Origin: Bacillus sp. sid0103
GTDB taxonomy: Bacteria > Bacillota > Bacilli > Bacillales_B > DSM-18226
Direction: 5' to 3'
Length of the DNA stretch: 64,000 nucleotides
NCBI RefSeq assembly: GCF_019219025.1
Contig: NZ_JAHUWN010000006.1
Location: 186,001-250,000 of the forward strand
Part shown: piece by piece, positions 15,765 to 39,576 of the stretch
Layout of the letters: each line of letters begins with the position of its first letter
How positions within the stretch are numbered: position 1 is the stretch's first letter
Made by a program: the position numbers and the translations under genes
Notes under the pieces: generated by a model
What the model was told of the DNA's origin: nothing
Seen by the model: the letters and a program-made list of their open reading frames with translations, nothing else
Database searches by the model: none

Positions 15765-16442
15765 GTGGGGAATAATTGGGCCGAGGAAGATTTAATTTCT
15801 TTACGTGAAAGGGTCTTTATTCATATTAAAGATCTTATTTTAGAAGGTGAATTTAAAACGGGTGATCGTTTAGTAGAACGGGAACTAGCCGAACGATTAA
15901 ATATTAGCAGGACTCCGATTCGCGAAGCGTTATTTAGACTAGAATCTCAAGGATTTGTAAAAACCGTTCCAAGAAAAGGTGTAATTGTCGCAGATATTTC
16001 GGAAAAGGAAATTATTGAAGTATTTACGATTCTGTCCTCGCTTGAAGTTTTAGCAGCTAAACTAACTGTTCAAAAGTTAGACGATGAAACCAAAAGTAAG
16101 TTTATTGAATACAGTAAAAAAGTAGAGGATTGTTTAAGGAATAAGGATGATCACGATTTCTCTAATTTACATGGTGACTTGAATCATCTCTTATACAGTT
16201 CAGCAAAAAATGCCAAACTTTATGAAATATTAAGCGGCTTATCGGATTATATTCGAGCTTTTGCCAAGACAGGATATAAAAATCCGGGCCGGCCTGTACA
16301 ATCGATGGAAGAGCACTTACGAATTATGGAGGCTATTATTAATCAAGAGGCAGAAATGGCCGAATATTTGACCAAGATTCATATTGAAAATTCACGAAAA
16401 GCGTATACTGAGGCAGTCAATCAAGGAAAAAAGAAGAAATAA
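15765..16442 (+). CDS. GntR/FCD transcriptional regulator, paralogue 1
   Basis: A 225-residue regulator: winged helix near residues 14-80 with GDRLVERELAERLNISRTPI and FVKTVPRKGVIV, then an all-helical FCD effector domain. FCD regulators of the FadR/UxuR branch typically bind TNGTATACNA palindromes and respond to a small carboxylate. GTG start, 5 bases after AAGGAG. Its DNA-binding part is nearly identical to the regulator at 28366 (RTPIREALFRLESQGFVKTV is shared exactly), implying a shared operator. Eleven such operators lie between 15.7 and 29.2 kb. Metal-binding His residues expected in FCD domains appear plausible (EHLRIMEAI) but were not checked structurally. Confidence 0.85.
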   Translation: MGNNWAEEDLISLRERVFIHIKDLILEGEFKTGDRLVERELAERLNISRTPIREALFRLESQGFVKTVPRKGVIVADISEKEIIEVFTILSSLEVLAAKLTVQKLDDETKSKFIEYSKKVEDCLRNKDDHDFSNLHGDLNHLLYSSAKNAKLYEILSGLSDYIRAFAKTGYKNPGRPVQSMEEHLRIMEAIINQEAEMAEYLTKIHIENSRKAYTEAVNQGKKKK

Positions 16443-17301: not shown

Positions 17302-17375
17302 ATTCATTCTCTCCTCGAGATTAAATTTTTTTGGAACCATTCTAATAGAAAGCTATCAATCTATGTACAAAATTT

Positions 17376-17735: not shown

Positions 17736-17745
17736 TGGTATACAA
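17736..17745. promoter_or_regulatory. GTATAC operator upstream of permease
   Basis: TGGTATACAA, 222 bases before the permease start; part of the shared operator set. Confidence 0.6.
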
Positions 17746-17967
17746 TCTACAGTATGCAAAATATTCTCTCTCGAAAATTTATTCTTTTAATGAAACTTGC
17801 CATTGTTCATCTTTTTAGTGAGTATGAAAAGAAAATTAGAAGTAGAGGATTTACACCATGAAAATATTCTACATAAAACGGTATTCCTCTCCTACGATCT
17901 TTTCCAATAGTTAAGGGAATCTTCGCTACAAACGTTTTAAACTATTTTAAAACTACGGAGGGGAAAT

Positions 17968-19410
17968 ATGGAATTAACAGCAGCTCATTGGGTCTATCTA
18001 GTTGTCACTGTAGCCGTTATTATTATCATGCTTTTTAGAAAAGGTGTTGTTTTACCACTTATTATTGGAACCTTTTTAGTGGCAGCCGTGTATAAAGGCA
18101 GCGTGATTGCCGGATTTCAAGCCGTCTTTAATGCTAACCTTGTTGCGGCAAAGGAGCTATTTAGTATTTTCCTAATCATATCCATCATGATCGGTCTCCT
18201 TAATTCCTTGAAGGATCTAGGGGCGGATAAACGGATGGTTGTACCGATTCAAAAAATAATGGTAAACGGACACGTTTCTTATTTAGTCTTAATGGTCACG
18301 ACGTTTGTGATTTCACTCTTTTTCTGGCCAACCCCAGCTGTTCCATTAATTTGTGCTTTATTAGTACCTGCTGCAGTTAGTGCAGGATTGCCAGTCATGA
18401 CCTCAGCAATGGTTATTGTTATTGCAGGACAAGGTATGGCCCTTTCATCAGACTATATTATGCAAGTAGCCCCAATGTTAAGTGCGAAAGCCGCAGGAAT
18501 TGATAAATCCTTAGTTTCAGATAAGGCCTTCATTCTTTCTCTTATTACTGGATTAACTTCTCTTACGATTGTATATGCAACACATCGAAAAGCGATTACA
18601 AAAAAATCTGTTAATGAGATTAATAAAGAAGGAAAAGCATTCTTCCAAGTTAGCGAAGAACTTGCTGCTACAGTAGAAGAAACTGCCGAAGTTATTAAGG
18701 TAAAAGAAAAATGGGGAAAAATCTTTGCTATCATTGTGCCGTTAGCGATGCTGGCTGTTATGATTTTTATGTTCCAGACTAAAATTGGCGGTGGAGCTGG
18801 ATTCGAGGGAGGCGACGGTGCTGCTTTTATCGGCGGGGTTGCTACGATTCTCTTAGTATTGGCGACAATCGCGTTTAACCGCATTCATGCACTTGATAAA
18901 ATCAGCGAACATATTACTGAAGGGTTTGTTTTCGCTTTTAGAGCAATGGCTCCCGTCATTCCGATTGCAGGTTACTTCTTTATGGGAAGTGGAGACTTTT
19001 CAGCATCTATCCTTTCGTTAGGTGAAGATGCAGCTAAGCCAGGATTCCTATTTGATTTGATCCAAGCAGCTCAAAATTATATTCCACACAGCCCATTTAT
19101 TGCAGCATTTAGTATCTTAATCGTTGGTATTATTACCGGTTTAGATGGATCTGGATTTGCTGGTCTTCCGTTAACTGGTGCTTTGTCAGGAGCAATTGGA
19201 CCTGGAAGTAACATCGATCCTTCTGTTCTTGCAGCTATTGGACAAATGGGTGCAGTTTGGAGCGGAGGAGGCACGCTGATTGCTTGGTCGTCACTTGTTG
19301 CAGTTGCCGGCTTCTTACAAGTGTCACCGTTAGAGCTGGCCAGAAAGAATTTCTTCCCAGTAATAACCGGACTTTTCCTTGCCACTCTTTTGGCAGTAAT
19401 CATCTGGTAG
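17968..19410 (+). CDS. putative carboxylate permease (ion-transporter-like)
   Basis: A 480-residue integral membrane protein with about 11-12 hydrophobic helices. Helical hairpin-like segments FWPTPAVPLICALLVPAA and GLDGSGFAGLPLTGALSGA, rich in Gly/Pro/Ser, resemble the re-entrant loops of ion-transporter-superfamily carriers (DctM, GntP, CitM groups). I cannot name the family. A hydrophilic loop near residues 210-250 divides the two halves. Strong GGAGGGG ribosome site before ATG 17968. Context with aspartate dehydrogenase and GntR operators suggests uptake of an acidic or amino-acid-like substrate, possibly under CcpA control. Confidence 0.6.
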   Translation: MELTAAHWVYLVVTVAVIIIMLFRKGVVLPLIIGTFLVAAVYKGSVIAGFQAVFNANLVAAKELFSIFLIISIMIGLLNSLKDLGADKRMVVPIQKIMVNGHVSYLVLMVTTFVISLFFWPTPAVPLICALLVPAAVSAGLPVMTSAMVIVIAGQGMALSSDYIMQVAPMLSAKAAGIDKSLVSDKAFILSLITGLTSLTIVYATHRKAITKKSVNEINKEGKAFFQVSEELAATVEETAEVIKVKEKWGKIFAIIVPLAMLAVMIFMFQTKIGGGAGFEGGDGAAFIGGVATILLVLATIAFNRIHALDKISEHITEGFVFAFRAMAPVIPIAGYFFMGSGDFSASILSLGEDAAKPGFLFDLIQAAQNYIPHSPFIAAFSILIVGIITGLDGSGFAGLPLTGALSGAIGPGSNIDPSVLAAIGQMGAVWSGGGTLIAWSSLVAVAGFLQVSPLELARKNFFPVITGLFLATLLAVIIW

Positions 19411-19478
19411 ATAAACAGTTTCCTTGTACTAAGCTATTTCATTAGACTAGATACAAATTAGGGGTCATAAATAAATAA

Positions 19479-19535
19479 AAGGGCTATCTCAAAAGTCAGC
19501 AGCGAACTGATTTTTGGGGTAGCCTTATTATTTTT
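19479..19535 (+). terminator. long imperfect hairpin terminator
   Basis: GGGCTATCTCAAAAGTCAG pairs imperfectly with CTGATTTTTGGGGTAGCC, followed by TTATTATTTTT. It closes the permease gene. Confidence 0.7.
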
Positions 19536-19601
19536 GGATTGCAAAATCGTTATCTTAAATTGACAAGAGTCATAGGATGAAAGGAAGAGAGGGGATGGAA
19601 A

Positions 19602-20315
19602 ATGAAAGACCACAGGATCGGTTTAGTAGGGCTTGGTAAATTAGGGACTGCGATGATGACACATTGGGACAAAAAAGGGATTGCCATTGGCGTTTATCAT
19701 CCGGTACAAACGAAAGCAGAACACTTTCTGCAAGGGTTCCAAAATGGCTACCTCCAAACAGAAAGTGAATTGAGGGATGTTGATCTCTTAGTTCTAGCAT
19801 TGCCAGCAACAGAAGTTATTCCATTTATTGCTTCTATAAAACTACAAGGTAATGTCCTATCTACACCAAGGATCATTAATATGGCAACAAATCTTCCTAC
19901 CAATGAAATAAAGGTCAATTTTCCTGACTTAAAGGTACATGGGGTCAAATATATGGGACATTCAAAGGATTTATTGGAACATGGAAATGGCCTATTTATT
20001 ACCGAAACTGAGTTACCACCCACGATTGGCGAACTTTTTCATGCACTTGGCAAGATAAATATTGATAGTGAGAATGTTTTATCAGAGGTAAACAAATTAG
20101 CCACGTATTTCGCTATCAAAACAGCAGTAACAATAGAAACGGAATGTATGAAAAGAGGATTGTCACCAGATTACCTGAAAAGAGCATTAACATCTTTAGC
20201 ACCTGAAGTGATTCGCTCGTATAGCGAGGGGAGTCTTGGACACTTTGCGAAGGAAATAGCCGCGAAAATTAAAGCAGAGAGTTCTAGTGATAGTGATGGA
20301 CGTAATACCCGATGA
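19602..20315 (+). CDS. NAD(P)-binding protein, P5C-reductase-like fold
   Basis: A 237-residue protein with VGLGKLGTAMM at the N-terminus (Rossmann loop), LALPATEV after strand 4 as in pyrroline-5-carboxylate reductase/6-phosphogluconate dehydrogenase relatives, and a helical C-terminal half (KTAVTIETECMKRG). It is shorter than full P5C reductase and lacks its C-terminal signature, so the reaction is unknown. AGAGGGGATGG precedes the ATG. It sits between two permease genes inside the GntR regulon; no operator of its own was seen. Confidence 0.55.
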   Translation: MKDHRIGLVGLGKLGTAMMTHWDKKGIAIGVYHPVQTKAEHFLQGFQNGYLQTESELRDVDLLVLALPATEVIPFIASIKLQGNVLSTPRIINMATNLPTNEIKVNFPDLKVHGVKYMGHSKDLLEHGNGLFITETELPPTIGELFHALGKINIDSENVLSEVNKLATYFAIKTAVTIETECMKRGLSPDYLKRALTSLAPEVIRSYSEGSLGHFAKEIAAKIKAESSSDSDGRNTR

Positions 20316-20321
20316 AATGGA

Positions 20322-20358
20322 AAAAGGTGTCAACCAAATGGGCTGACACCTTTTGTTC
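20322..20358. terminator. bidirectional terminator
   Basis: AAAAGGTGTCA (20322-20332) pairs with TGACACCTTTT (20344-20354), separating two convergent genes. Confidence 0.8.
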
Positions 20359-20369
20359 TGCACCAATAA

Positions 20370-21755
20370 TTAGGATAAAAACATTTGTAATATAAATAGA
20401 TACACCATGACACAGCCGATATAAATACTTGCGAAGGAAAGGTTCCAGTTCGACACTTTATAGGAGCTTTCCTTGACGATACTTGACATTAGACCTAATG
20501 TGGCATTATAGGGACCTACTAGAAAAGCAGATACAGCACCGGCTAACATCGCCACTGTCAAGATATGAGGGGAGATTCCAACCACCGTTGGATTCAAGCC
20601 TTCGGTCATTAATGCTAATGACACGGCAGGATGCAATCCTAAAAAGGCTAAAGCCAGTGGGATTAACGGTAGTAAAATTAAAAAGATCTCTACACCTGCA
20701 AATTGAATAAACTTGTTAACCCAGGCATCCAGAAAGACATTCGCATGAGTAACATTAATCGTTGAAATAAAAAAACCTGCCGATAAATAAATAAAGAATT
20801 GATCCTTCATACTTATAGAGAAGGTTTGAAAATGATTGACCAAATGGGCACCGAACTCCTTACCCTGCTTTAAGAAAAGGGACCAAACTAAGGCAAATGG
20901 TATGACCAGCAAGGAGACCAAAATTAAAAATGGATAAGGAAACTTTGATTCTACGAACGAAATGACCAGGTTAAAAATAATGATGGCCAATAGTATTTGA
21001 AAGACTCTACCTGCTCGATTCATCTGATCCACTGGTTCAACGGTTGCAGCAGTTTCGTGGACGGACAGGCTCTTTTTGTTTTGGATCATAATATTTGCCC
21101 TGCGTGAGCCAATATACCAATCCACACCAATGCCCACAATGCTTAAAGGAATTACATATGGAAGAATGGAGACCCAGCTTACATCCGTCATCGTGATTAC
21201 AATCCCGACAATCGGAGTAACTGGTGCCCACAGTAAAGGCATCGCAAACCCGCGCGTGATTGCTCTACTCATGAACCGCTCCTTATTCTCAACGGGTATA
21301 ACGTCTAAAGCAGGCCTAATCGAGTAATATGTCATTGGCAGGGTGGCCAGATTCATAAAAATACTAAAAAAATACGAAATACCAGACGTGATCATATACA
21401 GGTGACCAGAGGTTTTTACCCTCTTTTGAATAATGCTTTGTATGCCCCCGCTATATCCCCCTAATCTTATCGGAATCCCTAATATTGGAATAAGCGTAAA
21501 CATGGTTAGCAAGTCAAGCATTGAGCCGAAAGAGAGGATGTATTGCTGCCACGGAGCTCCACTGGAAATTAGTAAGACCACACCAAAAAGCAAAAATGTA
21601 CCTCCTAAAACTTGAACAAATCGCTTGGCTTGATATAAGGTCATAAGGACAATCAAAAGGCTAAGGCAGGAAATCAGTCCACTAAGATGAAGGCCGGGAA
21701 AGAGCACAGAGAATAAATACAATAAAATTACAAGAAAAAACAAATACCTCAGCAT
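20370..21755 (-). CDS. multi-pass permease of unknown family
   Basis: A 461-residue protein with about 12 hydrophobic segments and only short loops. Segments such as FVGPYNATLG-like GAVSAFLVGPYNATLGLM and SYFFSIFMNLATLPMTYYS suggest a carrier of the ion-transporter type, but I do not recognise the family. ATG 21755 is chosen because the longer reading frame would start inside the GTATAC operator; the ribosome site (GGGTGTTGATG) is weak. Its promoter carries TTGTATACCAA 28-38 bases before the start, so it belongs to the GntR regulon. Confidence 0.6.
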   Translation of the reverse strand: MLRYLFFLVILLYLFSVLFPGLHLSGLISCLSLLIVLMTLYQAKRFVQVLGGTFLLFGVVLLISSGAPWQQYILSFGSMLDLLTMFTLIPILGIPIRLGGYSGGIQSIIQKRVKTSGHLYMITSGISYFFSIFMNLATLPMTYYSIRPALDVIPVENKERFMSRAITRGFAMPLLWAPVTPIVGIVITMTDVSWVSILPYVIPLSIVGIGVDWYIGSRRANIMIQNKKSLSVHETAATVEPVDQMNRAGRVFQILLAIIIFNLVISFVESKFPYPFLILVSLLVIPFALVWSLFLKQGKEFGAHLVNHFQTFSISMKDQFFIYLSAGFFISTINVTHANVFLDAWVNKFIQFAGVEIFLILLPLIPLALAFLGLHPAVSLALMTEGLNPTVVGISPHILTVAMLAGAVSAFLVGPYNATLGLMSSIVKESSYKVSNWNLSFASIYIGCVMVYLFILQMFLS

Positions 21756-21782
21756 GTCATCAACACCCAATCTTTTTAAAAA

Positions 21783-21793
21783 TTGTATACCAA
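21783..21793. promoter_or_regulatory. GTATAC operator before permease 2
   Basis: TTGTATACCAA, the exact reverse complement of TTGGTATACAA, lies just upstream of the minus-strand permease start. Confidence 0.65.
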
Positions 21794-21854
21794 ACAAATC
21801 TTAAGAACGTAGATTAGTCACAAATTTGCCATTTATTCCGAACTTTTTTGGTAT

Positions 21855-21899
21855 TTGGTATACAAAAAACTTGTTTTCTTGTTCCGCCCATTATACAAT
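21855..21899 (+). promoter_or_regulatory. promoter and operator of a 28-codon gene
   Basis: TTGGTATACAA (21855-21865), then TTGTTT (21871-21876), 17-bp spacer and TACAAT (21894-21899). The operator lies immediately upstream of the -35. Confidence 0.65.
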
Positions 21900-21937
21900 G
21901 ACAGTATCAAATAACTCAATTCATAGGGGGCTTATCG

Positions 21938-22024
21938 ATGTTAAACTTTCTATTTGGATCCAAAAAAGCTGCAGAAAAGGCAGAAAAAAAACTTGCTTCA
22001 CTTAGAAAAACACTTAAATTCTAA
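21938..22024 (+). CDS. 28-residue basic peptide in its own transcription unit
   Basis: A short ORF begins MLNFLFGSKKAAEKAEKKL and ends with RKTLKF. An initial hydrophobic turn is followed by a Lys/Ala/Glu-rich amphipathic helix with eight or more lysines. AGGGGG is 7 bases upstream of ATG 21938. A well-formed promoter with a GTATAC operator lies before it and an intrinsic terminator 13 bases behind it, so the transcript would be only about 150 nt. No family is recognised; it may be a membrane-associated small protein, or the RNA itself may matter. The complete unit is what makes it credible. Confidence 0.55.
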   Translation: MLNFLFGSKKAAEKAEKKLASLRKTLKF

Positions 22025-22036
22025 CGATATTTATTC

Positions 22037-22066
22037 AACCGTCACTACCAAGTGGCGGTTTTTTGT
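22037..22066 (+). terminator. intrinsic terminator of the 28-codon unit
   Basis: AACCGTCACT (22037-22046) pairs with AGTGGCGGTT (22051-22060), one G-U pair, followed by TTTTGT. Confidence 0.85.
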
Positions 22067-22082
22067 CGGGCTATTAAAGTAT

Positions 22083-22115
22083 AAAAATCCGGAGACTTTT
22101 TTTCTCTCCGGATTT
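22083..22115 (-). terminator. terminator of the minus-strand 111-residue gene
   Basis: AAATCCGGAG (22085-22094) pairs perfectly with CTCCGGATTT (22106-22115); on the minus strand it is followed by a T-run. Confidence 0.75.
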
Positions 22116-22152
22116 CAGCTATATGGAATAAACTGTTGGCAGCAATGAATTC

Positions 22153-22488
22153 TTAAACGGTTACCTCTGTTGATTTTACCAGTTTGGAGTTTACAGAATC
22201 TTGACTGTTTCCAGACGCTTTGACGATCTCATTTAATTCCTCACGAGCTGCTTCGATTGTGTCGAACTTTTCAAAAAACTTTACCGCGATCTGATTGACA
22301 TATTCTTTTCCTTCATAATTCTCAAATAATTGAATTTTAATGGTTTCATCCAGGACTTCGGCAATTGTGTATTTCGCCTTTAGATTGTCAAAGAAATAGA
22401 AATCATAGGTTTCTACCGGTTTTAATCCATCATTTTCAAGAATCGTTTGGAAGGTATCCTTATTCGTTAACACAATATATTTCCCCAT
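22153..22488 (-). CDS. hypothetical 111-residue protein
   Basis: A small soluble, mixed alpha/beta protein with no membrane segment, no cysteine and a Ser/Val-rich tail. Its start MGKYIVLTNKDTFQTILEN reads like an antibiotic-monooxygenase-type (ABM) ferredoxin-like fold, but I see no decisive motif. ATG 22488 follows AAGGAG by 8-9 bases; an earlier GTG overlaps that ribosome site. It is divergent from the first ferredoxin gene, with a GTATAC operator in between, so it may belong to the GntR regulon. Confidence 0.55.
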   Translation of the reverse strand: MGKYIVLTNKDTFQTILENDGLKPVETYDFYFFDNLKAKYTIAEVLDETIKIQLFENYEGKEYVNQIAVKFFEKFDTIEAAREELNEIVKASGNSQDSVNSKLVKSTEVTV

Positions 22489-22616
22489 GCAGAACACTCC
22501 TTAAGGTAATTTTGAAATCCTATTAATAAAATCGTTTCAGGTAAGTATTGATTTTCATGGCTCAAAGGATCGGAAACTATGACAGAAAGTTTTCTCAACA
22601 CACCTCCAAAGGAATA

Positions 22617-22627
22617 TTGTATACCAA
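22617..22627. promoter_or_regulatory. GTATAC operator
   Basis: TTGTATACCAA, about 130 bases before the minus-strand start at 22488 and 209 bases before the ferredoxin start. Confidence 0.6.
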
Positions 22628-22759
22628 ACTCTTATTTTGTATTTTATCTTAAGTTGTTAAAATGTTCAAGGTTATATTCTAAATATTAAAATAATTACAA
22701 GAATCGTTGCTAGACTAAGAGAATTTAATTAAAAAATCTGGCCATTTTTAAATTCTAGT

Positions 22760-22789
22760 TTGCTTCTCTATCCAAAAGATTGTATACTG
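22760..22789 (+). promoter_or_regulatory. ferredoxin 1 promoter overlapped by operator
   Basis: TTGCTT (22760-22765), 17-bp spacer, TATACT (22783-22788). The operator ATTGTATACTG (22779-22789) covers the -10, the geometry of direct repression. Confidence 0.65.
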
Positions 22790-22835
22790 CAGAGAAGAAT
22801 CAAAATTTTTAGAATAAACTGAAAGGGGTAACAGT

Positions 22836-23168
22836 ATGCCAAAAGTGATCCTTCATGTAGATGGAACGACAATAGAACAAGAGGTCAAAGACAATGCCAA
22901 TTTAGTTGTCTTAGCTGGCACGCGCCAATTACCTAAATTGAAGTATGGCTGTGGAATGGGACGCTGCACGAAATGCACCTGCGTCGTAGTGAATGGGGCT
23001 GAAGGGTTGGCACCACCGAATTGGAAAGAAGAAAAAATGCTTGGCGATAAGGTAAACGAAGGGTACCGCTTAACGTGCCAATTAACCATTAAAGAGGATA
23101 TTGAAATTTCTCAAGAAAATATTTCTATTCAGGCACCTAAGAAACAATCGGCTATTCAATCGATATAA
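22836..23168 (+). CDS. plant-type 2Fe-2S ferredoxin 1
   Basis: A 110-residue ferredoxin with cluster ligands C39, C44, C47 and C81 (C-x4-C-x2-C ... C), preceded by a beta-grasp N-terminus MPKVILHVDG. An extra cysteine is at 49. It is a soluble one-electron carrier; no ferredoxin reductase gene is nearby. GAAAGGGG precedes the ATG by about 8 bases. In this cluster it could supply electrons to the haem-oxygenase-like diiron protein at 24243. Homologous to the ferredoxin at 29253, with different surface sequence. Confidence 0.85.
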   Translation: MPKVILHVDGTTIEQEVKDNANLVVLAGTRQLPKLKYGCGMGRCTKCTCVVVNGAEGLAPPNWKEEKMLGDKVNEGYRLTCQLTIKEDIEISQENISIQAPKKQSAIQSI

Positions 23169-23189
23169 GCAATTTTTTTAATTTGAAAA

Positions 23190-23201
23190 ATGGTATACAA
23201 A
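23190..23201. promoter_or_regulatory. GTATAC operator before creatininase-family gene
   Basis: ATGGTATACAAA, 30-41 bases upstream of the hydrolase ATG. Confidence 0.65.
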
Positions 23202-23230
23202 ATACAACAAGGCTAAGTAGGTGAGTAGGA

Positions 23231-24001
23231 ATGGATTGTTATGATTTAACGAGGATGACATGGAAAGAAGTAGAAGGAGCGCTTAAGTCAGTTCAACTTG
23301 CTATAATTCCTATAGGCGCTCATGAACAGCACGGCCCCCACATGGTAGAAAGCTGTGATGCGGTCTTAGCTGAAAGGATGGCCAAGAAACTTGGTCAAAG
23401 GATGTTCCCTTATGCATTGGTCACACCATCTGTTAATATGGGTGTTTCGCCGCACCATTTGAATTTTCCGGGCACGATTTCCTTGCAGCCAACCACATTA
23501 ATTGCGGTATTAAAGGATATGGTTTCATCATTAAAGCATCACGGAATTGAAAAGTTTTTGTTTTTAAATTCCCATGGCGGAAACCAGTCGACGCTTAATG
23601 TAGCCTCGATGATGTTAACCAAAGAACTGGATGTAGAAATCTATTATGCAAAAACGACTGCCTCTGCTAAAAAGGCAATTAAGGAAAATGTCACTTCCAC
23701 CTTATTTGGTCATAGTTGTGAACGCGAAGTTTCGGAAGCATTGTATTTAGCTCCCGAACTTGTCCGTCTTGAAAAACTAGAAAAAGGTGATATTCAAGAA
23801 GAGGGAAGATGGAAGCAACTTCGACCTGGTAAAGCAATTCAAGGATTTTATTATTATGAAGAAATGACTAATAATGGCTGTATCGGTGATGGTACAAAAG
23901 CAAGTTGGGAAATTGGCCAGCAGATCGTCGAGGAATCTCTTGATAATCTTTCCAACGAACTTTTCAAATTGTTGGATTTGAATGTGAATGTCCAGCAATA
24001 A
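23231..24001 (+). CDS. creatininase-family amidohydrolase
   Basis: A 256-residue metal-dependent hydrolase. Ligand motifs of the creatininase/MftE fold are intact: HEQHGPH (E32, H34), D43, NSHGGN (H115) and HSCEREVSE (E164/E166). Relatives open cyclic amides (creatinine), deformylate intermediates in archaeal flavin synthesis or process the mycofactocin peptide. Nothing here points to creatinine, as no creatinase or sarcosine gene is present. It follows ferredoxin 1 by 62 bases but has its own operator. Ribosome site AGTAGG/AGGTGAG is modest. Substrate is unknown. Confidence 0.85.
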   Translation: MDCYDLTRMTWKEVEGALKSVQLAIIPIGAHEQHGPHMVESCDAVLAERMAKKLGQRMFPYALVTPSVNMGVSPHHLNFPGTISLQPTTLIAVLKDMVSSLKHHGIEKFLFLNSHGGNQSTLNVASMMLTKELDVEIYYAKTTASAKKAIKENVTSTLFGHSCEREVSEALYLAPELVRLEKLEKGDIQEEGRWKQLRPGKAIQGFYYYEEMTNNGCIGDGTKASWEIGQQIVEESLDNLSNELFKLLDLNVNVQQ

Positions 24002-24090
24002 TCGACGTACTAGAAAAAAAGAAAAACAATCTTTCAAAAATTCTAAAAATTATATTTACAAATAAACAATATATTGGTAGTATAAACGTA

Positions 24091-24100
24091 AGGTATACCA
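24091..24100. promoter_or_regulatory. GTATAC operator, distal, before diiron-protein gene
   Basis: AGGTATACCA, 143 bases before the TTG start; pairs with a second copy 83 bases downstream. Confidence 0.6.
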
Positions 24101-24173
24101 AAACAATAGTTTTACCTAATAAAAGAGTGCTGGAAAGAGAGAATATCCACAATCTTTTTATTTTTAAACTAAT

Positions 24174-24184
24174 TTGGTATACAA
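24174..24184. promoter_or_regulatory. GTATAC operator, proximal, before diiron-protein gene
   Basis: TTGGTATACAA, a perfect copy of the consensus, 58-69 bases before the TTG start. Confidence 0.65.
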
Positions 24185-24242
24185 AATATCAAATACCAAT
24201 CAAAGGTTGGGTACCTACATAAAATTAGAGGAGGAGTTTCAG

Positions 24243-24974
24243 TTGACAGAATTATTATCTAAAGATGAATTTCGCAGACAATTAGAGGAAGCAATTAAAG
24301 GTAACCATAGCCAGAAAGCTGCATTTACAGTAGCTTGGGCAGAGGGCAAACTTGAAAGAAAACACTTTGCTAGTTGGGCTGAAAATCACTACCATTATGT
24401 AGGACCATTCGCTGATTACTTAGCGTATATTTACCACAATACTCCACAAGATCCAAAGTTTGCTGCTGCAAAAGATTTTACTCTACAAAATATGTATGAA
24501 GAAGAAATCGCAGCGGATCGTCACACAGACTTATTGATTCGATTTGCGGAAGCATGTGGTACGACTGCAGAAAGAATTATTGATCCAAACAATATGGCTC
24601 CAACTACTTTAGGTCTTCAAAGCTGGTGTTTCGCGGTGGCTGCACGTGAGAATTTCGTCGTAGCAACAGCAGCTCTGGTTGTTGGATTAGAATCACAAGT
24701 TCCTGATATCTACCGAAAACAAACTCCTGCTTTACGTGAAAAGTATGGGTTTACGGATGAAGAAATTGAATTCTTTGACTTACACATTGTTTCAGATGAG
24801 ATCCATGGTGAGCGCGGATACAAAATTGTTCTTGATCACGCCGATACGCCTGAGTTACAGCAACGTTGCTTAGAAGTTGTTCGTACAGGAGCAAAAATGC
24901 GCCGTATGTACATGGATGGCCTTTGGAAAGAGTATATTGAAAAGGATTTAGGTGCATTAGTAGAAACGAAATAA
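24243..24974 (+). CDS. haem-oxygenase-like diiron oxidase (CADD/PqqC relative)
   Basis: A 243-residue all-helical protein of the TenA/PqqC/CADD superfamily. All six carboxylate/histidine positions of CADD-like diiron oxygenases are present with nearly the same spacing: E87-x6-H94, E150, and H181-x3-D185-x2-H188. Family members activate oxygen for unusual reactions (pABA formation, N-oxygenation, olefin formation). TTG 24243 is used because GAGGAGGAG lies 7 bases upstream; a longer frame would start inside the operator. Two operators precede it, and ferredoxin genes in the same regulon could reduce it. It could instead be a cofactorless PqqC-like oxidase; the intact ligands argue against that. 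Confidence 0.75.
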   Translation: MTELLSKDEFRRQLEEAIKGNHSQKAAFTVAWAEGKLERKHFASWAENHYHYVGPFADYLAYIYHNTPQDPKFAAAKDFTLQNMYEEEIAADRHTDLLIRFAEACGTTAERIIDPNNMAPTTLGLQSWCFAVAARENFVVATAALVVGLESQVPDIYRKQTPALREKYGFTDEEIEFFDLHIVSDEIHGERGYKIVLDHADTPELQQRCLEVVRTGAKMRRMYMDGLWKEYIEKDLGALVETK

Positions 24975-25001
24975 ATAGATAAGCGGAAGCGCCTGTGTAC
25001 C

Positions 25002-25050
25002 GGCCGTCATATTAATCTTATAATTTAAGGTTTAAGTGACGGCCATTTTT
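25002..25050 (+). terminator. hairpin terminator after the diiron-protein gene
   Basis: GGCCGTCA (25002-25009) pairs with TGACGGCC (25037-25044), with further A/T pairing inside, then ATTTTTA. Just upstream, GCGGAAGCGCCTGT resembles a fragment of a common Bacillus intergenic repeat. Confidence 0.7.
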
Positions 25051-25109
25051 ATAGGATCATAGTTTTCAAATAATAGTTGGAACTTAATAAATGAAAAAAG
25101 GTGATAGTA

Positions 25110-26573
25110 GTGATTACTACAAAAGTAGAGACATTCAATAATTATATTAATGGAGAATGGCAGGAATCGGTAAGCAAGAAAACATTTTTTAGTGTGAACC
25201 CGGCAAATACCGAAGATCTCGTTGGAGAATTCCAGGCTTCAAACGAACATGATGTTCAAAATGCGATTGAAGCGGCCAAGAATGCTTTTCCTAGTTGGTC
25301 CCAAACTGCACCATCTAAACGCGCGGCTATCTTAAATCAAGCTGCCAGCATTCTCGAGCAAAATGTTTCTGCCCTTGCTGAAGAGTTAACAAGGGAAGAA
25401 GGCAAGCATGTAGATGATGCTAAGAATGAGGTATTACGTTCTGCGCAAACGCTCCGCTATTATGCAATAGAAGGACAAAGTTTTACAGGGGAAACCTTTC
25501 CAAACGATGATGCTAACATGAAAGTTTCAACGGAAAGAGAACCACTCGGAGTAGTAAGTGTCATTACTCCTTGGAACTTTCCACTTTCTATACCAGCCCG
25601 AAAAATCGCTCCCGCTTTAATCACGGGTAATACGGTGGTTTTTAAACCTTCCTCCGATACGCCACTAATCGCTTTTCGTCTAGTTGAAGCACTTGATAAG
25701 GCAGGAATTCCTAAAGGCGTGATTAACTTTGTTACAGGAAAAGCATCAGACGTGGGGGATCTATTGGTAACCCATCCTGCTGTTAGGGCCGTCACATTTA
25801 CAGGTTCAACTGCTGCAGGAGAAGATATTCATAAAAAAGCAGGCTTTACGACAAGGACGCAAATGGAACTGGGCGGGAAGAATCCTCTTATTGTTATGGA
25901 TGATGCAGATCTCGATTTAGCAGCCACTTTAACGGTTAACGGGGGCTTTTCGTTAACAGGGCAAGCTTGTACCGGAACAAGCCGTGTTATCGTCTTGAAA
26001 AATGTAAAAGAGGCATTTGTTCAAAAACTGGTTGAAAAAACGAGTGCACTAAAAATAGGTAATGGTTTTGAAGCAGGCGTGAAAATTGGCCCGCTTGCGA
26101 ACGAAAATCAATTGAAAAATGTCTTAAAGTATATCGAATTCGGTAAGGAAGATGGTGCTGAATTGGTCTATGGTGGTGAGGCATTATTGACTGGAGAATT
26201 CGAAAAAGGATACTATGTCCAGCCGGCCATTTTTACTAATGTAAAAGCAAATTCGCGAATTGCGAAAGAAGAGATCTTTGGGCCGGTTGTGGCTGTGATT
26301 GAAGTAGATACATATGAAGAAGCCATCGCCGTTGCGAATGATGTCGAATATGGTTTGTCTGCTTCGATTGTTACCAATAATCTCAAAATTGCTAACCAAT
26401 TTACCAAGGATATCCAAGCGGGAACAGTTAAGGTTAATCGTACAACAACAGGAAACTTAATGAATGCGCCATTTGGTGGCCTTAAAAAATCAAGTACGTC
26501 AACCTTCCGTGAATCGGGCAGAGTGGGCTTAGAGTTCTTTACACAATTAAAAACGGTTTATATGGGCTATTAA
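25110..26573 (+). CDS. aldehyde dehydrogenase, semialdehyde type
   Basis: A 487-residue NAD(P)-dependent ALDH with N156 (TPWNFP), E253 (ELGGKNP) and catalytic C287 (GQACTGT). The sequence resembles the 2-oxoglutarate semialdehyde (2,5-dioxovalerate) dehydrogenase group of Bacillus (YcbD-like), so oxidation of a carboxylated aldehyde to a dicarboxylate is plausible. GTG 25110 lies 5 bases after AAAGGTGA; a GTG three codons earlier overlaps that site. No operator was seen directly upstream, but it continues with HbpS and the transporter pair toward the second GntR gene. Confidence 0.85.
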   Translation: MITTKVETFNNYINGEWQESVSKKTFFSVNPANTEDLVGEFQASNEHDVQNAIEAAKNAFPSWSQTAPSKRAAILNQAASILEQNVSALAEELTREEGKHVDDAKNEVLRSAQTLRYYAIEGQSFTGETFPNDDANMKVSTEREPLGVVSVITPWNFPLSIPARKIAPALITGNTVVFKPSSDTPLIAFRLVEALDKAGIPKGVINFVTGKASDVGDLLVTHPAVRAVTFTGSTAAGEDIHKKAGFTTRTQMELGGKNPLIVMDDADLDLAATLTVNGGFSLTGQACTGTSRVIVLKNVKEAFVQKLVEKTSALKIGNGFEAGVKIGPLANENQLKNVLKYIEFGKEDGAELVYGGEALLTGEFEKGYYVQPAIFTNVKANSRIAKEEIFGPVVAVIEVDTYEEAIAVANDVEYGLSASIVTNNLKIANQFTKDIQAGTVKVNRTTTGNLMNAPFGGLKKSSTSTFRESGRVGLEFFTQLKTVYMGY

Positions 26574-26602
26574 TAACATTCGATAGATAAAGGAGAACAT
26601 GT

Positions 26603-27082
26603 ATGAAATCTGTGTTGAAAATTGAACTAGAAGAAGCAAAGTTAATGATTGAGGCGGCTAAGAAAAAATCAGAAGAGATCAATGTCCTTGAAACAATCGC
26701 TATTGTTGATGATGGCGGAAACCTGATTGCATTAGAACGCATGAACGGAGCACGCATCACTGGACCAGAAATTTCGATTGCTAAAGCCTACACGGCAGCG
26801 GGCCATAAACGCTCGACCCATTTATTTAACAAGGAGCCGAATGGACCTGCACTTCCTGGAAATGAAGCCTTTGGAATTCAGCAAATGCTGCCAGGAAAGT
26901 TTGCTATTTTTGTTGGCGGGTTTCCGATTGTTGTCAATGGCGAAGTAGTAGGTGGAATTGGAGTAAGCGGCGGAAACGGCGAGCAAGACACGGCCGTGGG
27001 TACAGCTGCACTGCAGGCACTACAGACCTATCTAGAAAGAGATGGGCTGGAGGTAATTACTGAAGCCGATATAAAAAAATAA
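26603..27082 (+). CDS. HbpS/GlcG-family protein (DUF336)
   Basis: A 159-residue cytosolic protein with VLETIAIVDDGGNLIALERM and the glycine-rich GGFPIVVNGEVVGGIGVSGG block typical of the haem-degrading HbpS/GlcG family. Members often lie in catabolic operons (glycolate, diols), and some bind haem or cobalamin; enzymatic role here is unknown. AAAGGAG precedes ATG 26603 and the gene follows the aldehyde dehydrogenase by 29 bases, so they are co-transcribed. Confidence 0.8.
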   Translation: MKSVLKIELEEAKLMIEAAKKKSEEINVLETIAIVDDGGNLIALERMNGARITGPEISIAKAYTAAGHKRSTHLFNKEPNGPALPGNEAFGIQQMLPGKFAIFVGGFPIVVNGEVVGGIGVSGGNGEQDTAVGTAALQALQTYLERDGLEVITEADIKK

Positions 27083-27091
27083 TTAGATCCG

Positions 27092-27135
27092 GACCTCATT
27101 CCTGAATTGTTTTTAACAGGATGGGGTCTATCTTA
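27092..27135 (+). terminator. weak hairpin between HbpS and transporter genes
   Basis: GACCTCATTCCTG (27092-27104) pairs imperfectly with CAGGATGGGGTC (27117-27128), then TATCTT. It may only attenuate transcription. Confidence 0.45.
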
Positions 27136-27165
27136 ATCTGGCGTTCTATTAAAAAAAGAGTAAAA

Positions 27166-27795
27166 ATGTTATATTGGTATAAAAAGGGGGAGAATCAACT
27201 GAAAACATATCTTGAGTTAGCTATTGGATTTGCCCGCACCGGTGTGACTGGTTATGGGGGCGGACCCTCGACTATACCGTTGATTGAATTTGAAGCTGTT
27301 AAAAAATACAAGTGGATGAACGAAGAAGAATTTGTAGAAATCCTGGCATTAGCCAACACATTACCTGGACCAATTGCCACCAAAATGGCGGCGTATATCG
27401 GTTATAAAGTGAAGGGATATTTAGGGGCTACTGTTGCCATTCTAACTCATATTCTGCCTTCCATTATTGCCATGATTGCCTTATTGGGTGTGCTTTATTC
27501 CTATAAGGAATCACCGATTGTAAGTGGGATGGTTCAAGGGGTTACACCTGTGATTGGCTTTATGCTCTTGGAGATGGCTTATCGTTTTTTCCAAAATGGC
27601 CGGAAAGGCTTAGGTTTTCCGATCATGCTCACGCTATCGATCGTTTCTTTAATTGTTGTTCAGTTCCTTGGATTACATCCCGGAATCTTAATTGCTGTAT
27701 TTCTGATCGCTGCCTTTATCATTGCGGATCGAAAGGAAAAAGCGGCAAAAACTGCTGCTGAGATGGTTCTTCAGAGAAAGGAAAAAAGTTCATGA
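27166..27795 (+). CDS. chromate-transporter-family half protein 1
   Basis: A 209-residue membrane protein of the short-chain CHR family, with the family motif GYGGGPSTIPLIE and NTLPGPIATKMAAYIGYK. CHR halves occur as adjacent pairs (ywrB/ywrA in B. subtilis) that together form the exporter. Chromate export is known for some members; many others have unknown anionic substrates. ATG 27166 has a weak ribosome site, whereas GGGGGAG lies 6 bases before an in-frame CTG at 27199 that would start the protein at the position typical for the family (KTYLELAIGF). The start is therefore unresolved. Confidence 0.7.
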   Translation: MLYWYKKGENQLKTYLELAIGFARTGVTGYGGGPSTIPLIEFEAVKKYKWMNEEEFVEILALANTLPGPIATKMAAYIGYKVKGYLGATVAILTHILPSIIAMIALLGVLYSYKESPIVSGMVQGVTPVIGFMLLEMAYRFFQNGRKGLGFPIMLTLSIVSLIVVQFLGLHPGILIAVFLIAAFIIADRKEKAAKTAAEMVLQRKEKSS

Positions 27796-28322
27796 TCTAT
27801 TTGCATATCTTTTGGTCGTTTTTTATTGCGAATTTATTAGGTTACGGAGGCGGTCCTGCAACCATTCCATTAATTCAAAATGAAGTGGTTAACCATTACC
27901 ACTGGATGAGTCTATCCGAGTTTGGGGATGTATTAGCGATTGCAAATGCCCTGCCTGGTCCGATTGCCACCAAAATGGGCGGCTATATCGGTTACCAACT
28001 AGGAGGAGTTCTCGGTGCAACCATTGCGCTAATTGCAACCGTTCTTCCTTCTGCACTTGCTGTTATTTTACTATTTAAGTTTATTAATCTATTTAAAGGG
28101 TCTCCAAAAGTAGCGCTTATGACAAAGTCTGTTCAGCCGATTATTTTCATTTTACTCGCTGTGATGGCCTATCAGTTCTTTTTAACTGCCTATGAAAAAA
28201 GTGGTCTTTTTCACTTAATCTTATTGGCTGTGGTTAGTTATTTTGCTTTAATTAAAATCAAAATGCACCCATCCCTGTTAATTGTTTGCTGCTTAGTCTA
28301 TGGTGGAGTTTTTCTCTCGTAA
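27792..28322 (+). CDS. chromate-transporter-family half protein 2
   Basis: A 176-residue second CHR half. It repeats the motif set of its neighbour: GYGGGPATIPLIQNEVV, NALPGPIATKMGGYIGYQ and LPSALAVILL, with about five hydrophobic segments. The ATG overlaps the previous stop as ATGA, indicating translational coupling and a fixed pair ratio. In this regulon the pair may export an organic acid or intermediate rather than chromate; that is inference. Confidence 0.8.
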   Translation: MIYLHIFWSFFIANLLGYGGGPATIPLIQNEVVNHYHWMSLSEFGDVLAIANALPGPIATKMGGYIGYQLGGVLGATIALIATVLPSALAVILLFKFINLFKGSPKVALMTKSVQPIIFILLAVMAYQFFLTAYEKSGLFHLILLAVVSYFALIKIKMHPSLLIVCCLVYGGVFLS

Positions 28323-28365
28323 GCCGGAATGTTAAAAAATAATATAAAATGAGCGGGTGGAAGTT

Positions 28366-29067
28366 ATGGACTTAAGATGGGAGGAAAACAATCTTTTATC
28401 GATTCGTGAGCATGCATATAACTATTTAAAGGAAATGATTCTCGAGGGCGAATTAAAAGCAGGCGATCGGTTAATTGAACGGGAGCTGGCTGGGAAATTA
28501 GGCATCAGCCGTACCCCAATTCGAGAAGCATTGTTCCGCTTGGAATCCCAGGGTTTTGTAAAAACAGTACCCCGTAAAGGTGTCGTCGTCTCGAATATTT
28601 CCGAGAATGAAGTCATCGAGGTATTTACAATCCTTGCTTCATTAGAAGTCCTTGCCGTTAAATTGGCCGCGGGACGGATGGATAAAGAAACACAACTAGA
28701 ATTGGATCAAAAGATCGAAGAGTTGATGGAGTTAAAAGATCAAGCGGAAGAAAACTTTAATTTTGAACATATTCAAATGAATCGTCTCATTAATAAAGCA
28801 TCGAAAAGCCCTAAACTATTTGAGATTCTCTCTGGCCTGATTGACTATATACATATGGCTGCAAATATGGGATATGAGACACCAGGTAGAAGAGAAGAAT
28901 CATTAAAGGAACATATCGATATCATGAAAGCCTTGCGGGATAAAGAAGCGGAAATGGCTGAGTATTTAATGAGAATTCATATTGAAAACTCGAAAAAAGC
29001 TTATATCACCTATATCAAAAATTTAAAACAAAAGCTTTCTAAAAAAGAAAAACTGATGTCCACTTGA
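28366..29067 (+). CDS. GntR/FCD transcriptional regulator, paralogue 2
   Basis: A 233-residue FCD-type GntR regulator and close paralogue of the one at 15765. The winged helix (near residues 14-80) is almost identical; the FCD domains diverge more (for example VKLAAGRMDKETQLELDQK against AKLTVQKLDDETKSKFIEY), which suggests the two proteins share operators but may sense different ligands. ATG 28366 follows GGGTGG by 5 bases and aligns exactly with the paralogue's start. It is 43 bases downstream of the transporter pair. Confidence 0.85.
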   Translation: MDLRWEENNLLSIREHAYNYLKEMILEGELKAGDRLIERELAGKLGISRTPIREALFRLESQGFVKTVPRKGVVVSNISENEVIEVFTILASLEVLAVKLAAGRMDKETQLELDQKIEELMELKDQAEENFNFEHIQMNRLINKASKSPKLFEILSGLIDYIHMAANMGYETPGRREESLKEHIDIMKALRDKEAEMAEYLMRIHIENSKKAYITYIKNLKQKLSKKEKLMST

Positions 29068-29114
29068 TCGATTACTCAAAGCGATCTCGGAGCGATTTGG
29101 TACCCATAGATGAT

Positions 29115-29150
29115 GACCACACCTGTCCTGCGGATGTGGTCTTCTATTTA
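29115..29150 (+). terminator. terminator after GntR paralogue 2
   Basis: GACCACACCT pairs with GGATGTGGTC, followed by TTCTATTTATCTTTT. Confidence 0.65.
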
Positions 29151-29185
29151 TCTTTTAAAAAAATCAAAAGATTTAAAATATTATA

Positions 29186-29223
29186 TTGTCTGATAATTTT
29201 AAATATGGTATATTGTATACCAA
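29186..29223 (+). promoter_or_regulatory. ferredoxin 2 promoter with GTATAC operator
   Basis: TTGTCT (29186-29191), 17-bp spacer, TATATT (29209-29214), then TTGTATACCAA (29213-29223) overlapping the end of the -10. A left half-site ATGGTATA occurs at 29205. Confidence 0.65.
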
Positions 29224-29252
29224 GAAGATAAATTAAAGGGAGGATACGAGGC

Positions 29253-29600
29253 ATGCCAAAAATAAATTTCATTAATAGCAATAAACAATTAGAGGTACCA
29301 GAGGATTCGAATATTTTGAGGATGTCCCTTCGTTACGATGGCGAACTCCCGAACCGATGTGGCGGAGGAATTTGCGGCAGCTGCGTTTTTAAAACGGAGG
29401 AAGGCGCAGAGTTCTTAGATAAAGTTAAGGTCCAGGAAAGAAGAAAATTAGGCGAAGAATGGTTAAAAGAAGGATATCGCCTCGGCTGTCAAACCTTTGT
29501 GACAAATGGAGATATTTCGATTTCTTGGGATGATGCATTTACAGAAGTAGTGAAAAAGAGAAAGCCGGATAAAATTCAAAAAGAAGTTTCTACCATTTAG
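29253..29600 (+). CDS. plant-type 2Fe-2S ferredoxin 2
   Basis: A 115-residue ferredoxin with ligands C36, C41, C44 and C79 and the CGGGICGSC loop. It is related to ferredoxin 1 but more acidic-basic mixed at the C-terminus. AAAGGGAGG precedes the ATG. Own promoter with an operator of the same family as the rest of the regulon. Having two ferredoxins and no dedicated reductase in the region suggests they serve different redox partners or conditions. Confidence 0.85.
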   Translation: MPKINFINSNKQLEVPEDSNILRMSLRYDGELPNRCGGGICGSCVFKTEEGAEFLDKVKVQERRKLGEEWLKEGYRLGCQTFVTNGDISISWDDAFTEVVKKRKPDKIQKEVSTI

Positions 29601-32831: not shown

Positions 32832-34151
32832 CTACTTTTTAGTCAATTCGGAAGTATTGGAGACTCGATAGATTTTCCTCGGGCGTCCCTTGGAGGAAGG
32901 TGCCTCATCTCCAATAATTTCTGCCATACCTTCTTCTACTAATCCTGTAAGGATTCGACGAGCATTTCTTGGGGTCATTTTTAGCCATTCGGCTACTTGA
33001 GTTGAAGTAATTGAACCATTTCCCATTCTATTCTGAACCGATAATATTTTATTAAACGTTGTAATCGTTATCCCGCTATTTTTAAGTTTTTCACTTATTT
33101 CCTTATTTTCAGTCCGATATTGAAAGGAGATGGTTTCTTGTTCTTTTAATGGACCTTCGATTGTTCCATTATTATCCACCAAGAAAGCACAAAAAGAATC
33201 ATAATTTTGAGCATGGTTTAGCGCAAGCCTAGCATTTTCTTCTGCTGTGAGGGCAGTATCACCGTAGCCAATTCCAATGTTGGATGGTAAATCTGCAATT
33301 AACGCCAATCTTTCCAAAAGTGAGGTAACCGAATTCTCCGGTTCTTCTAAAGAACCCCTAGTTGAAAAAATAACAAAGATTCCGATTCCAATCGTTACAA
33401 AAGATCCCGAAATGGATTCAGCAAAATTTAAAATAGCTGCCTGTATCTCTAAACTTAAGCGATGAATATCATATGAAACCATATTATGATCAGCTTTTTT
33501 TTCCATTCCTTGCACCTTCACAAGGATAGCCGCAATTTGTGATTGTTTAAAATGAATCGTTTCCCATTGTTGGACAGCAGATGACAATGTTCTACGAATG
33601 TTACTTCTAGTCGGTGCAACCCAATAGGTTGTTATATTTTGTGAACTCAACTGATCATAGATAGAACGTAAACTTGTTATACTAATATCCACTTTTCCAT
33701 CTTGAATAAGTTTTTGATGAAAAGCTAGTAGATTCTCAAGAGGAGTTTCATTGGTATACTCATGAACATAAATCTGGTCACTTGGTATACCAAGGTCACG
33801 ATAGGTTTCATAAACGTCTCTTTCGGACAATGTATCAATACTTATTCGTTCTAAACTTCTTTGATCATTATAACCAATGTCAAATAAGGTCTTGGTTAAG
33901 CTAGCACCATCTAATTGAAGTAAAAAAAATGGTTGTTTTACAGCGCTCTTTTGAAACGGATTAAAAAGGGCAGGCCCAGCAAGGATCCATAGATCAATTA
34001 CTTGTTGATTGTTTAATACGATATTTGTTGCTTCTTCGGGTAACTGATAAATATATGGTACTGGCTGCAGCCGGTCACGATATTCATTGGCTATTTCAGT
34101 AATTAGTTGGACAGAGTCAGTTGGTCCGATGATTCCGGCTCTTAGTTTCAA
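32832..34151 (-). CDS. transcriptional regulator with GGDEF-like and winged-helix domains
   Basis: A 439-residue regulator. Residues 1 to about 220 form an alpha/beta sensor region without obvious match; about 235-330 (VTIGIGIFVIFSTRGS ... IGIGYGDTALTAEENARLA) look like a degenerate GGDEF-type domain as in CdaR/PucR regulators, without the active GG[DE]EF residues; the C-terminal 75 residues contain a winged helix (TSTQVAEWLKMTPRNARRIL) and a basic SSKGRPRKIYRV wing. TTG start 5 bases after AGGAGGGA. Divergent from the flavin monooxygenase operon, which it most likely controls. Confidence 0.65.
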   Translation of the reverse strand: MKLRAGIIGPTDSVQLITEIANEYRDRLQPVPYIYQLPEEATNIVLNNQQVIDLWILAGPALFNPFQKSAVKQPFFLLQLDGASLTKTLFDIGYNDQRSLERISIDTLSERDVYETYRDLGIPSDQIYVHEYTNETPLENLLAFHQKLIQDGKVDISITSLRSIYDQLSSQNITTYWVAPTRSNIRRTLSSAVQQWETIHFKQSQIAAILVKVQGMEKKADHNMVSYDIHRLSLEIQAAILNFAESISGSFVTIGIGIFVIFSTRGSLEEPENSVTSLLERLALIADLPSNIGIGYGDTALTAEENARLALNHAQNYDSFCAFLVDNNGTIEGPLKEQETISFQYRTENKEISEKLKNSGITITTFNKILSVQNRMGNGSITSTQVAEWLKMTPRNARRILTGLVEEGMAEIIGDEAPSSKGRPRKIYRVSNTSELTKK

Positions 34152-34384: not shown

Positions 34385-34897
34385 ATGAATAAATCGAAGC
34401 AGAACCATGAGTTATTCCCGTTGGTTGACCAAGAACAATTTAAACAGGTTATTGGCCACTTTGCTAGTGGGGTAACGATCATAACCGTTAGAAATAATGG
34501 GGTTGATTTTGGGATCACGGCAAGTGCGGTCTGTTCTGTTTCTGTTGACCCACCAATGCTGCTGGTTTGCGTGAATAAAAACACAGGAACTTGTCATGCA
34601 ATCTCAGCTGCAGAGTCCTTTACGGTAAATATCGTCAATGAAACCCAAAAAGAGTTAGCATTAAAATTTGCAAGGGCTAATTCGGATAAATTTGATGGGA
34701 CTGACTTTTCATATGGCGAGTTAGGCAATCCAGTTTTAGGTCAATCACTTGCTACACTCGAATGCCGCGTTGTTGAAGAAGTAACAGGTGGTACTCATTC
34801 CGTCTTTTTGGGCAGGGTGCAAACAGCCTATGCAGCTGATGGAGAGCCTTTAGTTTACTACCGTGGAAAGTTTGGAAAATTTGAAGAAGCAAAATAA
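34385..34897 (+). CDS. flavin reductase of a two-component monooxygenase (HpaC type)
   Basis: A 170-residue flavin:NAD(P)H reductase with GHFASGVTIITV, GITASAVCSVSVDPPMLLVC and HSVFLGRV, the core of the HpaC/RutF flavin-reductase-like family. It supplies reduced FAD/FMN to a partner oxygenase, here the HpaB-like protein encoded 47 bases downstream. ATG 34385 follows AGGGGTG by 6 bases; the ATG at 34381 is in another frame and stops at once. Transcribed from the TTGACA promoter with the CodY box. Confidence 0.85.
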   Translation: MNKSKQNHELFPLVDQEQFKQVIGHFASGVTIITVRNNGVDFGITASAVCSVSVDPPMLLVCVNKNTGTCHAISAAESFTVNIVNETQKELALKFARANSDKFDGTDFSYGELGNPVLGQSLATLECRVVEEVTGGTHSVFLGRVQTAYAADGEPLVYYRGKFGKFEEAK

Positions 34898-34944
34898 CAA
34901 TCATTTGATTTGTAAGTTAAATGAATGAAATGGGAGGTAATGGA

Positions 34945-39565: not shown

Positions 39566-39576
39566 GGTGATTACTT

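Follow-up and report, generated by a model that had tools for sequence, protein, structure and literature searches.

A conserved gene cassette of Bacillus sp. sid0103 that may encode a catabolic pathway around a ferredoxin-fed haem-oxygenase-like diiron oxygenase with an orphan partner

What does a haem-oxygenase-like diiron oxidase/oxygenase (HDO) do among ferredoxin, hydrolase and dehydrogenase genes of a soil bacterium? The question is raised by positions 22836-29600 of a stretch of 64,000 nt from Bacillus sp. sid0103, here called the window. A sequence-only reading had proposed a new oxidative pathway there, with the oxidase, two ferredoxins, a creatininase-like hydrolase, an aldehyde dehydrogenase (ALDH) and an aspartate dehydrogenase (AspDH). 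The region was analysed using a list of open reading frames (ORFs) with Pfam and NCBIfam scans. The genes reported within it are real, their ORFs and families matching the description; AspDH lies outside the span, which also holds an HbpS-like gene, two genes of chromate-transporter type and a GntR-FCD regulator gene. The cassette is a strongly conserved, co-regulated gene set shared by soil bacteria of several phyla. We favour, with moderate confidence, a catabolic pathway built around a multicomponent, ferredoxin-fed HDO oxygenase and running via an aldehyde. The most valuable point, new beyond the sequence-only reading, is the obligate orphan partner and the ferredoxin chain of an HDO.

The oxidase was listed as an ORF of 266 residues at 24174-24974. 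Its most likely true start is the TTG at 24243, behind GGAGGAG, because most rows of the oxidase alignment begin there and an operator (24175-24184) falls within the extension. This gives a protein of 243 residues (24243-24974, + strand; PF14518, TenA-type, 117.8 bits). Six metal ligands (E110, H117, E173, H204, D208 and H211 in the numbering of the 266-residue ORF) are kept in all 82 oxidases of loci L001-L082, and the three-His/three-carboxylate motif is described as the ligand set of the HDO superfamily (PMC13108848). The AF2 model (pLDDT 87.3, pTM 0.83) was matched best by CADD, PqqC and UndA, and also by HrmI and BesC, with 8va9 at TM 0.74/0.91. By sequence and predicted fold the oxidase belongs to the HDO superfamily, whose traits, a diiron or Mn/Fe cofactor and activation of O2, are predicted for it. 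Identity with PqqC was rejected at 41.8 bits for TIGR02111 (cut-off 240).

A genome collection was scanned with an alignment of 20 oxidases as query, and the best 80 of 540 confirmed relatives were taken; by record titles, these best 80 came from Bacilli (one Chryseobacterium), Burkholderiales and Streptomyces. To these were added two loci on plasmids or megaplasmids (Caballeronia SBC2, Cupriavidus metallidurans CH34) and 38 from further genomes, making 120. Eight were dropped (L083-L088, short and duplicate places; L094 and L095, from the genomes of L076 and L081), so that 112 were counted: 72 from Bacilli, 24 from Burkholderiales, 8 from another Pseudomonadota genus and 8 from Actinomycetota (3 of them short). 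Groups were assigned by fetch route and record titles, not by a tree. A component was scored as present when any ORF in the fetched stretch matched the query protein at E<=1e-5 over half its length; stretches reached at most about 10-12 kb per side and were often ended by contig ends. The oxidase of Neobacillus sp. SuZ13 (L003) is identical to that of the window over the 243 residues from 24243, with neighbouring genes 76-98% identical; oxidases from other groups than Bacilli show 60-74% identity. Locus L020, titled Chryseobacterium sp. ISL-80, has a cassette of Bacillaceae type and its label is probably wrong.

Co-occurrence in other genomes, on which the sequence-only reading had staked its proposal, proved to be far beyond chance. 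In the 112 loci the oxidase was accompanied by a Fer2 ferredoxin in 109, ALDH in 108, the HbpS-like gene in 107, a GntR gene in 104 and the first permease in 100. In Bacilli (n = 72), ALDH, HbpS, ferredoxin and creatininase were found in 72 loci (two ferredoxins in 68), the first permease and GntR in 71, the orphan and the second permease in 69, the ChrA family in 66, AspDH in 53 and the RidA family in 33; a malic enzyme gene joined the set in 3. Burkholderiales loci (n = 24) held ALDH, two ferredoxins and a PDR-type reductase in 24, HbpS in 23, GntR and OCD in 22, the orphan in 21, the permease in 20, an amidase in 15, one alpha/beta-hydrolase kind in 7 and GGT in 1. The other Pseudomonadota genus (n = 8) had two ferredoxins, the orphan and GntR in 8, ALDH, HbpS and the permease in 7, and a hydrolase and a reductase in 2 each. 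For Actinomycetota (n = 8) the counts were 5 for ALDH, HbpS, the GGT family and ferredoxin, 3 for OCD and 2 each for the permease and RidA.

The core shared by all groups thus comprises the oxidase, ferredoxin, permease, ALDH, HbpS and regulator. The orphan occurs in every group except Actinomycetota, and the type of hydrolase and the choice of AspDH or OCD vary by lineage. Creatininase was found in 72/72 Bacilli, 0/24 Burkholderiales and 0/8 Actinomycetota loci, with one match (21% identical) in the 8 loci of the other Pseudomonadota genus, and AspDH in none of the 40 loci outside Bacilli. Of the single pathway proposed earlier, joint function of the oxidase, ferredoxins and ALDH is supported, and creatininase and AspDH are lineage-specific rather than core; the orphan, the first permease and the HbpS-like gene, absent from that scheme, occur in more groups than either. 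The order HDO-Fdx1-orphan-Fdx2-GntR was kept in 6 of the 8 loci of the other Pseudomonadota genus (L113-L115, L117-L119), where permease-ALDH-HbpS runs divergently from the HDO run (L118 ends after the permease); no hydrolase or OCD matching the query proteins was found in L113, L115, L116, L117 or L119. With the centre genome counted, the oxidase was rare in broad draws (2/396 genomes in one phylum, 4/398 in the other). It was found in 8/150 genomes of an actinomycetotal family, 8/60 of the other Pseudomonadota genus and 2/150 of the family of the Streptomyces locus.

The orphan is a small protein of about 111 residues (22153-22488, - strand) and is the tightest partner of the oxidase. In the family of L075 (titled Paraburkholderia tuberum), the oxidase (E<=1e-60) was found in 47/249 genomes and the orphan (E<=1e-6) in the same 47, compared by eye; in the genus of L003, both were found in the same 21/60 genomes, about 2 kb apart. 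These genomes are related and do not count as independent trials, yet absence was as consistent as presence. Some genes of high-GC loci were lost in ORF calling: the orphan was detected in 21/24 Burkholderiales loci by blastp vs 47/47 oxidase-bearing genomes by profile search. No Pfam hit above cut-off, NCBIfam family or PDB match (E<=0.001) was obtained for it. A search of the protein collection gave 1700 relatives, and a Pfam domain was seen in 0/120 among the matches listed. Its model (pLDDT 82) is mostly beta with C-terminal helices and has no clear solved relative. The orphan alignment has eight invariant columns, none of them Cys or His.

If the oxidase turns over repeatedly it would need a reductant, by analogy with SznF, UndA and BesC, for which one is required (PMC11363339). 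The proposal that the ferredoxins are the likely donors was strengthened by the reductases found near them: a PDR-type match in 24/24 Burkholderiales loci (the weakest 25% identical) and a YumC-type enzyme in 11/72 Bacilli loci, with a match in 2/8 loci of the other Pseudomonadota genus and 0/8 of Actinomycetota. No reductase was seen in the scanned genes of the window. In both Bacilli and Pseudomonadota, homologues of Fdx1 (22836-23168, +; Fer2 43.7 bits) lie close to the oxidase, and Fdx2 (29253-29600, +; Fer2 40 bits) has an operator at 29213. At least two ferredoxins were present in 100/112 loci. The plant-type 2Fe-2S pattern, Cys-X4-Cys-X2-Cys followed by a further Cys, was found in 204 of the 209 ferredoxin ORFs; the other five are all five actinomycetotal ones (L089, L109-L112), in which the third Cys is Asp (C-X4-C-X2-D), and this suggests an aspartate-ligated or otherwise altered 2Fe-2S cluster. 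In two variant Bacilli loci (L067, L068) the oxidase has a 4Fe-4S ferredoxin and a YumC-type reductase nearby; L067 also includes genes for a malic enzyme, a NIF3-like protein and a nucleoside-gate permease.

The shared operators described earlier were borne out. The pattern TKGTATACMA, picked after the sites had been inspected, occurs 8 times in the window vs 0.27 expected, a number reached in 0/100 shuffles, and 7 of the 8 sites lie within 17736-29222. Besides the site upstream of the oxidase, matches were located between the orphan gene and the divergently oriented Fdx1 gene (22617-22626) and upstream of creatininase (23191-23200); a pair of GTATAC motifs stands upstream of AspDH (17377 and 17384). 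In the 72 Bacilli loci the motif was counted from 250 bases upstream to 80 inside each gene start. It marked operon-head genes: the oxidase (70/72), orphan (69/69), second permease (59/69), Fdx2 (58/69) and Fdx1 (49/70), and also creatininase (37/72), AspDH (28/53) and the first permease (32/71). Internal genes rarely carried it (ALDH 1/73, HbpS 0/72, ChrA-type 1/66 and 0/66), as was the case for unlabelled control genes above 120 residues (5/411) and the GntR genes themselves (2/36 and 8/64). This distribution supports a single regulon, and we infer that the GntR-FCD proteins bind the operator. A perfect operator-like palindrome, TGGTATACCA, lies outside the cassette at 33783-33792, inside a regulator-like ORF (32832-34151, -).

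The remaining components were assigned by family. ALDH (25101-26573, +; Aldedh 568.8 bits) fell below the cut-off of every one of the 25 NCBIfam models among the matches listed, the best being GucD (594.6 vs 770). The HbpS/GlcG-like protein (26603-27082, +; PF03928 125.2 bits) has PDB relatives in 2a2l, EfgA and NahX. The first permease (17968-19410, +; operator at 17736), which probably takes up the substrate, is kept across phyla with the motifs FFWPTPAVPL and SGFSGLPLTG; it reached the cut-off of no Pfam model and matched nothing in NCBIfam or the PDB. The second, found in Bacilli (20370-21797, -; operators at 21783 and 21856), is without a Pfam or NCBIfam match above cut-off; both permeases are hydrophobic and probably multi-spanning. 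The hydrolase of Bacilli (23231-24001, +) has a creatininase fold (PF02633 212 bits) and is matched by 3no4 and creatininase relatives, but lies far under the creatininase, MftE and IolN equivalog cut-offs; a creatinine amidohydrolase was rejected at 102.4 bits for TIGR04448 (cut-off 235). Two GntR-FCD paralogues were found, at 15765-16442 (paralogue 1, +; GntR 67.2, FCD 63.5 bits) and 28357-29067 (paralogue 2, +; GntR 69.8, FCD 65.1 bits). The accessory AspDH (16495-17340, -) reached NF009828 (242.9 bits, cut-off 177) and was short of the equivalog PRK13304 (228.9 vs 267). Of the two half-size chromate-transporter-type genes of Bacilli (27121-27795 and 27792-28322, +), the first gave PF02417 at 137.5 bits, and the second was assigned by clustering with the first, not by Pfam scan.

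In the pathway that we favour, electrons from NAD(P)H would pass to a reductase (the PDR-type enzyme for Burkholderiales, the YumC-type one for some Bacilli and presumably a housekeeping enzyme elsewhere), from there to one or two 2Fe-2S ferredoxins, and on to the three-His/three-carboxylate diiron site, with the orphan binding HDO or ferredoxin as a putative coupling or effector subunit. The permease would import a small substrate, oxygenation and a lineage-specific hydrolase would convert it to an aldehyde, ALDH would oxidise the aldehyde, and amino or imino acids would be processed by AspDH or OCD and by RidA. In the presence of substrate, the GntR-FCD regulators would turn on the set. That a small compound is broken down, probably one with nitrogen, is suggested by the permease, the oxygenation step and ALDH, by hydrolase matches in 98/112 loci (creatininase, amidase, alpha/beta hydrolase or GGT) and by matches to AspDH or OCD in 78/112. 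An intermediate that is a reactive imine or enamine would be in keeping with the RidA-family genes found in 35/112 loci. As to substrate class, an amide, a lactam or an N-substituted amino acid is an even guess. In L093, where the oxidase is 60% identical and ALDH is distant, Fdx1, the orphan, a reductase-like ORF (25%) and, by eye, an alpha/beta-hydrolase-like ORF still stand beside the oxidase; since the last is the only hydrolase there, the substrate may instead be a nitrogen-free ester or lactone.

Several observations weigh against this pathway. The chain is not universal, because in Actinomycetota the orphan was found in 0/8 loci (3 short) and the ferredoxins are short of one of the four cysteines. 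No reductase match was present in the fetched stretch of 61/72 Bacilli loci. Distant matches (ALDH 39-45% in Actinomycetota, GntR about 30% in Burkholderiales) may be other members of their families, and the sequences of ALDH, AspDH and creatininase leave their substrates unfixed. The HDOs characterised so far are given as biosynthetic enzymes (PMC13232832), as they are in the review PMC13108848, and on that precedent the HDO here could make a natural product or cofactor-like molecule, to be exported by permeases or by the chromate-transporter-type proteins. The recurrent clusters that were annotated, a part of the total, included no synthetase or ligase, and the set recurs in Bacilli, Burkholderiales and another Pseudomonadota genus. 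ALDH, hydrolase, AspDH/OCD, RidA and GntR-FCD regulators are usual catabolic genes and point to catabolism, so that a biosynthetic system is considered unlikely.

A detoxification or stress regulon, with the HbpS-like protein and ALDH handling a toxic aldehyde and the other genes oxidative stress, would suit the HbpS relative EfgA, a formaldehyde sensor (PMC8153426), and the HDO-domain protein that shields Acinetobacter from desiccation, the reaction of which is reported as unknown (PMC13232832). The repeated presence of permease and hydrolase genes together with the oxidase argues weakly against such a regulon (stress genes themselves were not searched for), and we regard it as quite improbable. 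The pABA synthases raise another candidate, a self-sacrificing, CADD-like p-aminobenzoate (pABA) synthase serving folate synthesis: they are nearest by both sequence and fold (nearest solved structures by sequence 9pj4, 1rcw and 8va9), and the CADD/PabS branch (PF14518) has the fold and the 3-His/3-carboxylate ligands in common with the window oxidase. In CADD/PabS, Tyr27 is sacrificed and Lys152 is the donor (PMC11965152). When these positions were mapped through the oxidase alignment with the solved structures, the first was Thr in 69, Ser in 12 and Ala in 1 of the 82 oxidases and the second was Gln in all 82. Because both self-sacrifice residues are replaced, a pABA synthase is very unlikely and was rejected; the dedicated ferredoxins and catabolic-type neighbours, unlike CADD/PabS, leave it hardly credible. 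For the orphan alone, a role as cofactor-assembly or stability factor for HDO or ferredoxins, not as catalytic effector, would also fit its obligate co-occurrence, and HDO clusters are described as labile (PMC13108848). The lack of Cys and His in its invariant columns is weak evidence against this role, which we hold to be rather unlikely.

Among known systems, the nearest precedent for the favoured multicomponent oxygenase is MboA/MboB of mangotoxin biosynthesis (PMC13185094), an HDO with an adjacent dedicated flavin/Fe2S2 reductase, MboB, needed for the alkene-to-alkyne step (PMC13185094; PMC13108848). Unlike biosynthetic MboAB, the cassette has separate ferredoxins, the orphan, a permease, ALDH and a regulator. 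A works-like parallel is offered by the bacterial multicomponent monooxygenases (soluble methane or toluene kind), in that a diiron oxygenase is accompanied by a ferredoxin, a small protein and, for some lineages, a reductase; the hydroxylases of those systems are ferritin-like (PMC13108848), whereas a haem-oxygenase fold is predicted here. The orphan is a candidate effector, compared with the effectors of multicomponent monooxygenases through Pfam, NCBIfam and PDB searches only. Of more than 10,000 HDOs, about a dozen have had their function validated according to a 2026 review, in which those studied so far are described as needing no protein effector (PMC13108848). No description of this cassette was found by title or abstract start in full-text searches, whose coverage left out most subscription papers.

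Elsewhere in the window, a pair similar to the HpaC/HpaB flavin monooxygenase (HpaB-type) was seen at 34385-36408, and an apparent ABC transporter of branched-chain type, judged from start residues only, at 38390-42957. At 9573-12237 an esterase of LipP1 type adjoins a flavin monooxygenase similar to a Baeyer-Villiger-type enzyme, possibly a separate ketone or ester pathway. A basic intergenic ORF of 28 codons at 21938, MLNFLFGSKKAAEKAEKKLASLRKTLKF, had similar ORFs in only 2 of the 72 Bacilli loci by motif search.

It is a little short of an even chance that this would be both the first catabolic and the first multicomponent HDO, with the orphan as obligate effector and two dedicated ferredoxins, opening up the widespread degradation of a common soil or plant metabolite. 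If true, the cassette would represent a new HDO architecture, one that unites catabolic function with a natural chain of electron carriers and the orphan as obligate partner. Natural redox partners would then be available for HDO biocatalysis, and the orphan and permease families, for which no Pfam or NCBIfam model was above cut-off, would gain their first function-bearing context.

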